Below are positions 5,447 to 9,500 of a stretch of 35,534 bases of DNA, one piece after another. The position numbers and the translations under genes were made by a program. Positions within the stretch are counted from its first letter, which is position 1. Every line of letters begins with the position of its first letter. The stretch comes from a virus. The notes beneath the pieces were generated by a model, which saw only the letters and a list, made by a program, of their open reading frames with translations, did not search any database and was not told the DNA's origin. The stretch is taken from positions 1-35,534 of IMG/VR virus record IMGVR_UViG_3300042397_000191; one strand, given 5' to 3'.

Positions 5447-5698
5447 ATGCCACGCGACTACAAGAAAGAGTACGCCAACTACCAAGGCAAACCCGACCAA
5501 ATTGCCAACCGTGCAAAGCGCAACGCTGCCCGCTCTGAGATGGAAAAGAAGGGTGTGGTGTCCAAGGGTGACGGCAAGGACGTCGACCACAAGACGCCTA
5601 TTGCCAAAGGCGGCGGCAACGGATCAGGCAATCTGCGTGCAGTGCCCAAGTCCGAAAACCGCTCCTTTGCCCGGACCAAGTCGGCCCGGATGAAGTAA
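5447..5698 (+). CDS. Small HNH endonuclease-like protein (83 aa)
   Basis: A beta-beta-alpha-metal HNH nuclease candidate. The core is DVDHKTPIAKGG followed by GNLRAVPKSENRSFART, giving the D-H, central Asn and final Asn positions of HNH proteins. The N-terminal 35 residues and C-terminus are basic and could bind DNA. It is shorter than free-standing homing endonucleases, but its size fits small phage HNH proteins that aid terminase cutting. It starts 9 bases after the MazG-like stop with a GAGGAA site, so it is the last gene of the + strand operon. The stop abuts the stop of a - strand gene. It could be a packaging helper or a mobile nuclease; the sequence does not decide. Confidence 0.75.
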   Translation: MPRDYKKEYANYQGKPDQIANRAKRNAARSEMEKKGVVSKGDGKDVDHKTPIAKGGGNGSGNLRAVPKSENRSFARTKSARMK

Positions 5699-5704
5699 TT
5701 ACTT
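5693..5704. repeat. 12-bp palindrome spanning two convergent stop codons
   Basis: AAGTAATTACTT is a perfect palindrome. It contains the TAA of the HNH gene on the + strand and the TAA of the 43-aa gene on the - strand, which abut with no spacer. It is AT-rich with no T-run after a GC stem, so it is not a convincing terminator. Confidence 0.7.
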
Positions 5705-5830
5705 CGCCTTTGCTTTCATGGCGCAGACGCCAGCCTTCGCGCACTTGGCGGGGCTAGGGCAACCTTTGCAGGGTTTGAAGGGAGCAGCTTTTTTGCCTGC
5801 GGGGGCCATCATCTTTTTACCGTACATCAT
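5699..5830 (-). CDS. Cys-rich basic microprotein (43 aa)
   Basis: Function unknown; found by reading the gap between the HNH gene and the 77-aa gene. The frame encodes a Lys/Ala-rich peptide starting MMYGKKMMAPAGKKAA, with four cysteines spaced C-x2-C-x5-C-x5-C (CKGCPSPAKCAKAGVC) and a KAKAK end. A GGAGA site lies 5 bases before the ATG, which supports a real start. It is the last - strand gene, following three other small basic genes. The four Cys could bind zinc or iron, or form disulphides. The ribosome site and strong composition bias argue that it is translated; with 43 codons, chance cannot be fully excluded. Confidence 0.6.
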   Translation of the reverse strand: MMYGKKMMAPAGKKAAPFKPCKGCPSPAKCAKAGVCAMKAKAK

Positions 5831-5848: not shown

Positions 5849-6082
5849 TTAACGGTGCTTCGCGGTTTTTGCAGCTATCTTTTTGGGTTGAGCTACAAAC
5901 TGTTTCCCCGCAGCTTTGCCAGCGCGTTTCGCACGCGTTGTTGCAGCATACTCAGCAGGGCTAAGACTTTTAATTGCAGACTCAGGTAGATACCTTTCGC
6001 CCGTGTCAGATGATCGTTTTCCACTTTTGGTTCTCCAGTTCTGGTCAGTCCAGTTTTTGAGGGATTTTTGAGGGGCTTTCAA
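5849..6082 (-). CDS. Small basic conserved phage protein, DUF5872-like C-terminal half (77 aa, TTG start or frameshift product)
   Basis: Highly basic, with KSLKNWTDQNWRTKSG near the start, GERYLPESAIKSLSP in the middle and GKQFVAQPKKIAAKTAKHR at the end. From memory this pattern is the second half of DUF5872-type proteins of phages and algal viruses; molecular role unknown. There is no ATG in this frame: the only likely start is TTG at 6082, which overlaps the stop of the 62-aa gene, with a GGGGGG run 8 bases before it. The frame is -1 relative to the 62-aa gene and is open upstream only as far as a TAA at 6116-6118. It is therefore either re-initiated at TTG or read by -1 slippage on the G run as an extension of the 62-aa protein. 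Confidence 0.75.
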   Translation of the reverse strand: MKAPQKSLKNWTDQNWRTKSGKRSSDTGERYLPESAIKSLSPAEYAATTRAKRAGKAAGKQFVAQPKKIAAKTAKHR

Positions 6083-6267
6083 TCTCTGTACCCCCCGCCA
6101 GCGGCCTTGTATTTCTTAGCTACAAGCTGTGCCTTGCGAGCTGACCATTGGCCAGCACCAGTGCCTTGGGTTGCAGCAGCTTTCACTTGCGACACGATCC
6201 GCTTGCGCATCTCGGGCTTGGTGTAGTTGCCAGCGGCGTTGACTGTGGATTTGGGCTTGGTAGCCAT
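6079..6267 (-). CDS. Small basic conserved phage protein, DUF5872-like N-terminal half (62 aa)
   Basis: A basic protein with the segment GAGQWSARKAQLVAKKYKA and the end GGGYRD. I recognise the pattern 'GQWSARKAQ.LA..YK..GGGY' from small proteins of cyanophages and large algal viruses (DUF5872-type); function unknown. I chose ATG 6267, with GGAAG 8 bases upstream, rather than a start six codons earlier inside the preceding gene. The start lies one base after the stop of the 84-aa gene. Its own stop overlaps the possible TTG start of the 77-aa gene, and six consecutive G lie just upstream of that stop. In the relatives I recall, this segment and that of the 77-aa gene occur in one chain. Confidence 0.78.
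   Translation of the reverse strand: MATKPKSTVNAAGNYTKPEMRKRIVSQVKAAATQGTGAGQWSARKAQLVAKKYKAAGGGYRD
6091..6096 (-). other. Run of six G in the coding strand, possible frameshift site
   Basis: In the 62-aa frame the codons read GGC GGG GGG TAC AGA GAT TGA. Moving back one base after the G run enters the frame of the 77-aa gene (GTA CAG AGA TTG AAA). The C-GGG-GGG heptamer is close to, but not identical with, the classical X-XXY-YYZ pattern. Slippage by RNA polymerase is also possible. Confidence 0.35.
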
Positions 6268-6268
6268 G

Positions 6269-6523
6269 TCAGCACTTCCATGCACGAAGCGATTTGTTGA
6301 TGCGGCTGTTGGGGTCTTTGGCGGTCTTGGCGCTGGTCAGCTTCTCTTTCATACCCTCCATGCGGGCACAGAACGAGTCGCGTCGTGGGCCACCCTCGGG
6401 TTGAGGAGCCTTGAGCCCCGGCTTGCCGGGGTTCGCCTTGTTGTAAGACGCACGCCCCTTGGCGTTGAGCCCGCCCTTTTCGGACTTGCCTTCTTTGCGT
6501 GTCCACGCTGGTGTCTTTGCCAT
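6269..6523 (-). CDS. Small basic conserved phage protein, DUF6321-like (84 aa)
   Basis: Function unknown. The protein opens with AKTPAWTRKEGKSEKGGLNA, continues with KGRASYNKANPGKPGLKAP and has a PRRDSFCARMEGM segment, ending in SRINKSLRAWKC. I associate this order of motifs with DUF6321 proteins from phages and aquatic viruses. It is rich in Lys, Arg and Gly and lacks any membrane segment. I prefer ATG 6523, which overlaps the stop of the 2026-aa gene (TGATG) and has AGGAGA 6 bases upstream, over a GTG one codon earlier. It is the first of four small basic genes at the distal end of the structural operon. Confidence 0.78.
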   Translation of the reverse strand: MAKTPAWTRKEGKSEKGGLNAKGRASYNKANPGKPGLKAPQPEGGPRRDSFCARMEGMKEKLTSAKTAKDPNSRINKSLRAWKC

Positions 6524-9500
6524 CACTCTTCTCCTCTGGCTTTCGCCAACGCTTGTTGCATACGATCTCGCAGGTCGTCGAGCTCTCTGTCCAGTGCCTC
6601 GTAGTCGGGGTAGCCTTTGCGGTACTCCTCACGCTTGGCCTTGGTCATTGCAGCCTTGTAGTCCTTCTTGATGTCCTTGAGCTCTTTGCTCTTGTAGAAC
6701 GCAGCCTCGTCGACGTTGAACTGGTACAGGCCAAGTCCACCCAGTGTGCGTGCCAAGAACATAGAGCTCTTTTCGACACCTGTGGGGCCCATGGCACCGT
6801 CCTTCAGCTGACCGATCTGATCCCAGAACTTGGTCGTAACAACTGGCGGTGCCATTGTGTTGTATGCAGCCTTGCCTGTATTCACCAGCTTATCCCACTC
6901 TGTGTCTGTGGGGGCGTGCATGGGCTTGCCTGTGAAGGGGTCGTATCCGTTCATGGCGGAGATAAGCGTGACCAGTGGACCACCGGGACTGGCGAAACCG
7001 GGCAACCACGACTGACCTGCAAATGGAGACTCACCCGGCGCAGGCTGGAACAGCGACAGGAACGGGAGATACTTGCCGACGTTGAGGTAGGTTGGGTTCT
7101 GGTCATCACCAACAAATGGGATGCGCATGTGCATGTATGGGCCGAGGCCAAACAGCGAACGCTCACGCAAATAGTCTGGCCCTTTCTTGCGCAGCTCATC
7201 ATCTTCTTCCCCACCCAGCGCAGCTTGCATCAGCATCACCGATGCCATCATGTTAACAATGGCCCAAGGCTTGGTAACGGCGATACGACCGAGCACTGGC
7301 ATGATCGCGTACGACCACGACACAAACGGTAGGAATGTCTGCCGAGCAGCGCGGATAGCACGAGCGTCGATGTCGTAGTCCAAGAACATTTTGCGAGAGG
7401 CCAGACCGATTTCTTCAAGTTGCTTGGCGTCGAGTTGTTTGGTGCCGTCGCGCAACTGTACGTTGCCAGCGGTTTCTAAGAACGCGGCAAAGCGGAACAC
7501 GTTGTCTTCTGCTGCGTATATCTCTACAGCGTTGTCTTTCCAACCTGTCAACTTGGCTTTGGTCTGCTCAAACGCTGCCATAGAGGTCATGCGCTTAATG
7601 TATGACTGGTCGCTGGTGGGGGTGATGGACTCAGACAGGCGGTCGTAAACGCTGCCCTTGAGCTCAGAGTTTGTGAACTGGCCAAGCACAGCACCAGAGT
7701 TAAAGAACGCTTGCATCAGTGCGCGATCAGCGTCGGTCATTGAATCAGGGTTGCGCTCGAAGTTGGCGTACATACCTGCAGCGCGTTTGAGCGTGCCGAG
7801 GCGGATGCCGTGAAGAATCAACAGCGCGACGTTTGACAATACGTTGGTGACGTGCGTGCCGGGGTTCAGGACAGTCTTGGACTGCTTGAAAAACGCCATC
7901 AGTTCGTTGAACGACTTGAAGTTAACCGCTGGCGAGCGATCGTGCATGTCGATCATGGCATTCCACACAGGGCCCGGGATGATCTTCCCAGCAAGAGCTC
8001 CGTAGGTTGTGCCTTGTGGCAGCTGCACCCATGTGCCAGTGCGCTGTGTTTGCCAGCGCAGAGACTGCGACTTGGAAGCCTCGTCAGATACCTGCAGCAC
8101 GTTGTTGAGTTCGAGCTTGCGATCGCCAAACACTTCGTTAATCTCGTCGACACTGTCAAAGGCAACGGCTTCTGCTGTAGGCTTATCACCCTCACGACCA
8201 ATAGAAGCAAGGTTGCCGAAGTACGTTGTGGCAGCATGCGCGTGAGCCAGCGCAGCCGTGGTGTTGACCAGCGCCAGTGCAAGGTCTTCGCTCTTCAGGT
8301 TTTTCAAAGCATCCCGCGTGGTAATGCTGGATGAGAATTCAAAGTTGCCTTTGTCGGTGTCGTACTTTGAGAACTTCCAGATGCGTTTGGACTTGGAGTC
8401 AACTGCTGTACCTGAAGGTGTAACGCCGGTTTTGTCATACTGCGCTTTAGAAATAAAGCCAGCGGGCAGTCCCTTTTTGCCGAGCTTGTCTTCAAACAAC
8501 TGATAGAGCAGTTGGTCTTGGTCGACAATACCCTCTGTGGTATCGAGGAACTGCTCGAACGCTTCGAGCGACTGATGCTGCTGTGTCTTCACGCCGACCA
8601 TACTGGCGATCTTGCCAGCGCTGAGCGTAGAGCCTGCGACCTGACTGATGCTGGTGGGGTTGATGATGTACTGCGTGAACGGCATGCTCTCAAAGGCACG
8701 GCGCTCTTTGGAGTTCGCAGGCAGTGTGCTGATGTACTGCTGCATCAAGCCTTTGAGGTTGTCAGCAATGGCCTTGAACCCAGAGGCGTTCTCGATGCCA
8801 GCAAACGCTTTAGTGTTGCCGTCCATGTAGTCCAAGAATGGCTCACGCAGCTCAGGACGAGCAGCGATGGTGGTTGCAATCTTCTCCATCTGCAAATGGC
8901 CAGTCTGGGCCAAGAACTTGTAGTTGTCAATCGCTGCCACAGTGACAGGAGAGTTGCTAAAGTTCGAGTTAAACTGCATGATGACGCGCTCAAGCGTCGG
9001 CACTTCCTTGCGGATGTAGTTCGCCAGCTTCGCGCCGTTCTTTGCAATGCTTGCTGTAAGCGGCAGGTCTTTGCCATTGACGCGACCAAGGCCAACGAGC
9101 TCAAACACAAGCTGTGTGGGTGTCTTGAACTTACCGGGACCGTTGGCGAATGCAGTGGCGTCAGCAAAGCCGACCTGCTGCGCAGCAGCGTCGATCGTCG
9201 GCGCGGTCGTGGGGTCGATAGACTGCACTGTAGCTTTTAGGATTTTGCCGGTGGCTTTTCCAGTCTGCTGGGTTTCAGCGGCCTGCTGAAGCAAGCGGAA
9301 GCTGCCCATGAGCACGTCGCTGGCTACTGAGTCCTTGACACCCAACATGCGGCGCACGGTAGCCAGTATCATGTTCCAGACGTCCTTGGCAGCTTGCACG
9401 AATGACGTGGGAGTACCTTTGGATGGCATAGCTTCCAACGCCTTGCGGAACTCGACCAGCGTGTTGCCATAGGAAATCAGTTCCAGCACAGCGTCCAGTT

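Follow-up and report, generated by a model that had tools for sequence, protein, structure and literature searches.

In the window, by which we mean the whole 35,534-nucleotide stretch of viral DNA analysed here (IMG/VR record IMGVR_UViG_3300042397_000191), two small genes on the minus strand overlap in different frames next to a run of six G residues. This arrangement raises the question of whether they yield one protein through a -1 frame change at the G run, or two proteins with a start codon each.

Two overlapping genes in a compact operon

Gene A (6267..6079, minus strand) begins with ATG, encodes 62 amino acids and ends with the codons GGC GGG GGG TAC AGA GAT TGA, whose Gly codons contain the G6 run (6091..6096, minus strand). 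Gene B (6082..5849, minus strand) encodes 77 amino acids in the -1 frame relative to A. Its frame is open from only 34 nucleotides upstream of A's stop codon, a stretch without ATG or GTG, and the sole start available is a TTG that shares the four nucleotides TTGA (6079..6082, minus strand) with the TGA of A. The coordinates, frames and codons given in the initial annotation, the single TTG start and the basic character of both products (pI 10.7 each) were all reproduced.

A and B are genuine genes rather than chance open reading frames, as judged from their profile matches and from selection in relatives. A matches phrog_17747 over nearly its full length (6.3e-27, profile positions 4-63 of 63), and B likewise matches phrog_14910 (2.3e-36, positions 3-79 of 80). 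The median pairwise dN/dS among relatives is 0.04 for A and 0.10 for B, values that nearly saturated synonymous sites make approximate and that indicate purifying selection on both genes.

Upstream in the same operon lies a gene of 85 amino acids (6269..6526, minus strand) that matches DUF6321 (PF19846, 7.1e-19) and whose TGA ends one nucleotide before the ATG of A; the same domain occupies the C-terminal position in PHROG-matched proteins of 300-900 amino acids, and a literature search on DUF6321 found no paper with that name. Directly downstream of B, an open reading frame of 43 amino acids (5699-5830, minus strand), left out of the initial gene list on account of its length, starts with ATG behind a GGAGA and encodes a basic product with four Cys residues, CKGCPSPAKCAKAGVC. 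It is kept in 17 fetched loci plus the window and is probably another small gene of the A-B operon. Adjoining the end of the operon is a convergent gene of 83 amino acids (5447-5698, plus strand) with weak likeness to HNH endonucleases (E 0.09 to Pfam HNH, 7e-5 to phrog endonuclease VII).

The junction and the start codon of B

Relatives of B or of A and B together were collected from 19 named-phage records and the best 80 IMG/VR loci, and junction layouts were analysed in 90 loci, the window included. A TTGA junction with B in the -1 frame is present in 48 of the 90. IMG/VR was also scanned with a pattern in which the Gly-Tyr of A and the Lys-Ala-Pro-Gln of B were fixed, while the two codons before TGA were left free; together with the other collected loci, this gave 137 distinct junctions among the matches listed.

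Across these 137 junctions the overlap has the form NTGA, and among the matches listed the triplet that shares bases with the stop of A is TTG in 106, ATG in 23, GTG in 8 and CTG in none; as the loci are related, these counts are not independent events. A was confirmed upstream in 133 of the listed junctions, 101 of which have GAT as the last codon. Whenever the terminal residue of A is Asp, it is encoded by GAT and never by GAC among the matches listed, whereas Asp elsewhere in the same genes is encoded by GAC 165 times and by GAT 100 times. GAT and GAC are synonymous for A, yet only GAT precedes TGA, so that it must be the start codon of B which is constrained. The missing C before TGA is hard to account for except through this start-codon constraint. 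TTG is a weak start codon; nevertheless, initiation of B at TTG as a separately started gene is supported, and a fixed split with initiation at this codon, one of the two options of the initial annotation, fits all of the data.

Other relatives have a B start of their own. The Roseobacter phages CRP-13 (MW514247) and CRP-9 (MW514246) resemble the window in that the homologues of A and B are annotated as two coding sequences (hypothetical proteins) with a four-nucleotide overlap, but this overlap is ATGA instead of TTGA, and B is longer at its C-terminus. In two loci (L034 and L068) B starts at a GTG five nucleotides past A's stop; in L001-L008 and others about 80-180 nucleotides of other sequence separate A from B; and in Puniceispirillum phage HMO-2011 the distance reaches 1.8 kb, each gene having its own start. 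Relatives with ATG or GTG as the start of B and without a G run are found alongside those with TTG; the observation named beforehand as speaking against a joined protein, an ATG for B and no G run, has thereby been made in part.

Two of these insertions merit description. In L001 the intervening sequence holds a gene of 41 amino acids (L001:3158-3283; VIKGHMDDCAVMQDGPCTCG...) that starts at a GTG within the last codons of A and whose stop adjoins the ATG of B, so that it is inserted exactly at the split. In HMO-2011 one of the genes between A and B (L082:735-2504) carries the annotation methanesulfonate monooxygenase alpha subunit and is possibly a host-derived metabolic gene inserted at this position.

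The G run itself is not kept as such in relatives, where GGGGG, GGAGG and GGCGGG occur at the junction; the -1 relation, the other feature proposed for a conservation check, holds in the 48 loci with TTGA. Present in most relatives is GGRGG, the core of a Shine-Dalgarno site, which lies 9 nucleotides before the NTG, within the upstream gene and at a usable distance. In agreement, the third base of the middle Gly codon in the Gly-Gly-Gly-Tyr motif is A or G at 139 of 176 split loci versus 27 of 78 loci that encode both parts as a single chain and have no start codon after this motif (Fisher p 3e-11, relatedness ignored). Comparing the Shine-Dalgarno duplex energy with that of synonymous recodings gave no discrimination, as Gly-rich codons pair with the anti-Shine-Dalgarno sequence regardless, and the reading consequently rests on the codon comparison between split and single-chain loci. 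From this comparison we read the G run as a putative Shine-Dalgarno site of B.

Slippage, coupled initiation and independent initiation

If ribosomes underwent programmed -1 frameshifting at the G run, or if transcription slipped there, A and B would be joined in a functional fusion of about 139 residues; a fusion of roughly 140 residues made beside the 62-residue protein was one of the two options of the initial annotation. The -1 frame of the window is indeed open from the G6 run into B, and the single-chain relatives are evidence that a joined form can be functional. Among the matches listed, however, TAA or TAG closes the -1 frame downstream of the G run and ahead of B's start in 27 of the 137 distinct junctions, so that slippage could give no fusion there; L022, for example, reads GGG GGG TAT AAA GAT TGA in the frame of A and GTA TAA AGA TTG in the -1 frame, with B intact. 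The bases before TTG vary as the frame of A permits, with both TAC and TAT used for Tyr and every Gly codon allowed at the third Gly, and not as the -1 frame would require. A slippery heptamer X XXY YYZ was sought in the 0 frame and is absent, the codons being Y GGG GGN and variable, and in many loci among the matches listed the run is replaced by GGAGG or GGCGGG, changes that preserve a ribosome-binding site and lose a slippery one. Stimulatory RNA structure at the junction was sought in the window's sequence, whose fold is like that of shuffled sequences (z -0.45); a hairpin between the G run and a downstream CCCCTC seen in this fold was dismissed, since the fold is no stronger than that of the shuffles. 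Slippage would moreover leave the constraint on B's start triplet (NTG, with N other than C) unexplained. The evidence against a conserved frameshift product is good, there is none in favour of one, and we regard a functional fusion made in this way as very improbable; a false lead on frameshifting is thereby removed. It is equally improbable that a small share of ribosomes slips at the window's G6 run, where the -1 frame is open, and yields, alongside the two separate products, the single-chain form known from distant relatives as the product of one gene. For similar cases the junction offers a simple test: leave the base before the stop codon free and check for CTG, and seek stops in the alternative frame.

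As single-chain homologues exist, one might suppose that faulty sequencing or assembly produced the split, or that a single-chain gene has decayed into a pseudogene here. This reading, whose probability is practically nil, is already refuted by these data: the same junction occurs in more than 100 distinct sequences, both open reading frames are under purifying selection and the start codon of B is constrained.

The account that we hold with high confidence is that A and B are two separate overlapping genes of one operon, B having a Shine-Dalgarno-guided TTG start, probably coupled in translation, and likely derived from an old fission of a DUF5872-like gene. Both genes are co-oriented members of a tightly packed operon; ribosomes would finish A at its TGA and initiate B at the TTG within the overlap, directed there by the putative Shine-Dalgarno site (GGRGG, here G6) embedded in the conserved Gly-Gly-Gly-Tyr codons of A, with coupling by termination-reinitiation. 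A single-chain basic DUF5872-like protein would have undergone fission into the pair, whose products would still act together.

Coupling of A and B by termination-reinitiation is probable, and we infer it for the window phage from the published behaviour of four-nucleotide overlaps. Such overlaps couple translation, removal of the Shine-Dalgarno motif inside the upstream gene lowered reinitiation in four of five Escherichia coli pairs, and gene overlaps are overrepresented where the products are subunits of heteromeric complexes (PMC6728339, PMC10666635). With the known coupled stop-start pairs (PMC6728339, PMC10666635), A and B share the common strand, the four-nucleotide overlap, a Shine-Dalgarno-like motif in the upstream gene and products that likely act together; they differ in that most members of the A/B family start B at TTG, with ATG or GTG in others, and in that coupling is here a prediction. 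Joint action of the two products is likely in view of their shared basic charge and their occurrence in one chain elsewhere.

Alternatively, B could be initiated de novo at TTG from its Shine-Dalgarno site, largely or wholly independently of the translation of A. The GGRGG is suitably spaced from TTG and B also stands away from A in relatives such as HMO-2011, but TTG by itself is weak as a start. Among the five overlapping E. coli pairs tested, one, bioBF, was not coupled (PMC6728339), whereas among the coupled arrangements of bacteria the four-nucleotide overlap is the most frequent (PMC10666635). On balance, independent initiation seems unlikely, though less so than slippage.

Single-chain relatives and the origin of the pair

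The two parts do lie in one chain elsewhere, as stated in the initial annotation: A and B are joined in Synechococcus phage S-CRES1 gp97, in L036 and L218, and in about 78 distinct loci altogether. A corresponds to the N-terminal and B to the C-terminal half of these proteins, which match both phrog_17747 and phrog_14910. The families of A and B are different, but they join in single chains, and the two parts did not hit unrelated families.

The single-chain relatives resemble DUF5872 (PF19197), the family named in the initial annotation: 28 of 42 match it at E up to 0.1 (best E 2.3e-6), over most of the profile length, and one member scores 25.4 bits, below the curated cutoff of 27.5. The resemblance did not extend to the window, where the halves are separate genes and where neither A nor B nor a hypothetical A+B chain matched Pfam at E up to 1. 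A link between the window and DUF5872 would therefore run via intermediates. A literature search on DUF5872 found one paper, with a table entry only.

When 251 distinct A+B pairs are placed in a tree, the split forms all constitute one clade (support 0.89) and the single chains fall outside it under a midpoint root, which suggests one fission followed by repeated change of start codon, overlap and inserted genes. As the deep nodes are weakly supported (0.39-0.51), a fission, and not a fusion, is likely although unproven, and the same strength attaches to the view that the A/B pair arose by an old split of a basic single-chain protein resembling DUF5872. L016, a candidate for a natural single chain, was left out of the count, its in-frame appearance stemming from a change of the A frame midway.

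As a kind of system A/B is ordinary, and its fission history is a modest addition. The analysis links phrog_17747 and phrog_14910 to each other and, tentatively, to DUF5872, which makes the products of A and B likely partners and opens either the pair or its single-chain homologue to study. The latter provides a handle through a confident structure model (mean pLDDT 89.7), the least certain stretch of which is the linker at the split site. Searching PDB sequences with a profile made from the single-chain alignment gave no match, and Foldseek with the model returned no PDB hit below E 6.9. Against viral models, Foldseek found an unnamed protein at E 8e-10 and weaker others, none giving a function. 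One further likeness is to BFVD A0A6J5PCY7, a 1022-amino-acid protein of an uncultured phage named ParB/Sulfiredoxin, which shares 53% identity with the single-chain model over 47 columns; part of the A/B family may also be a domain within large phage proteins.
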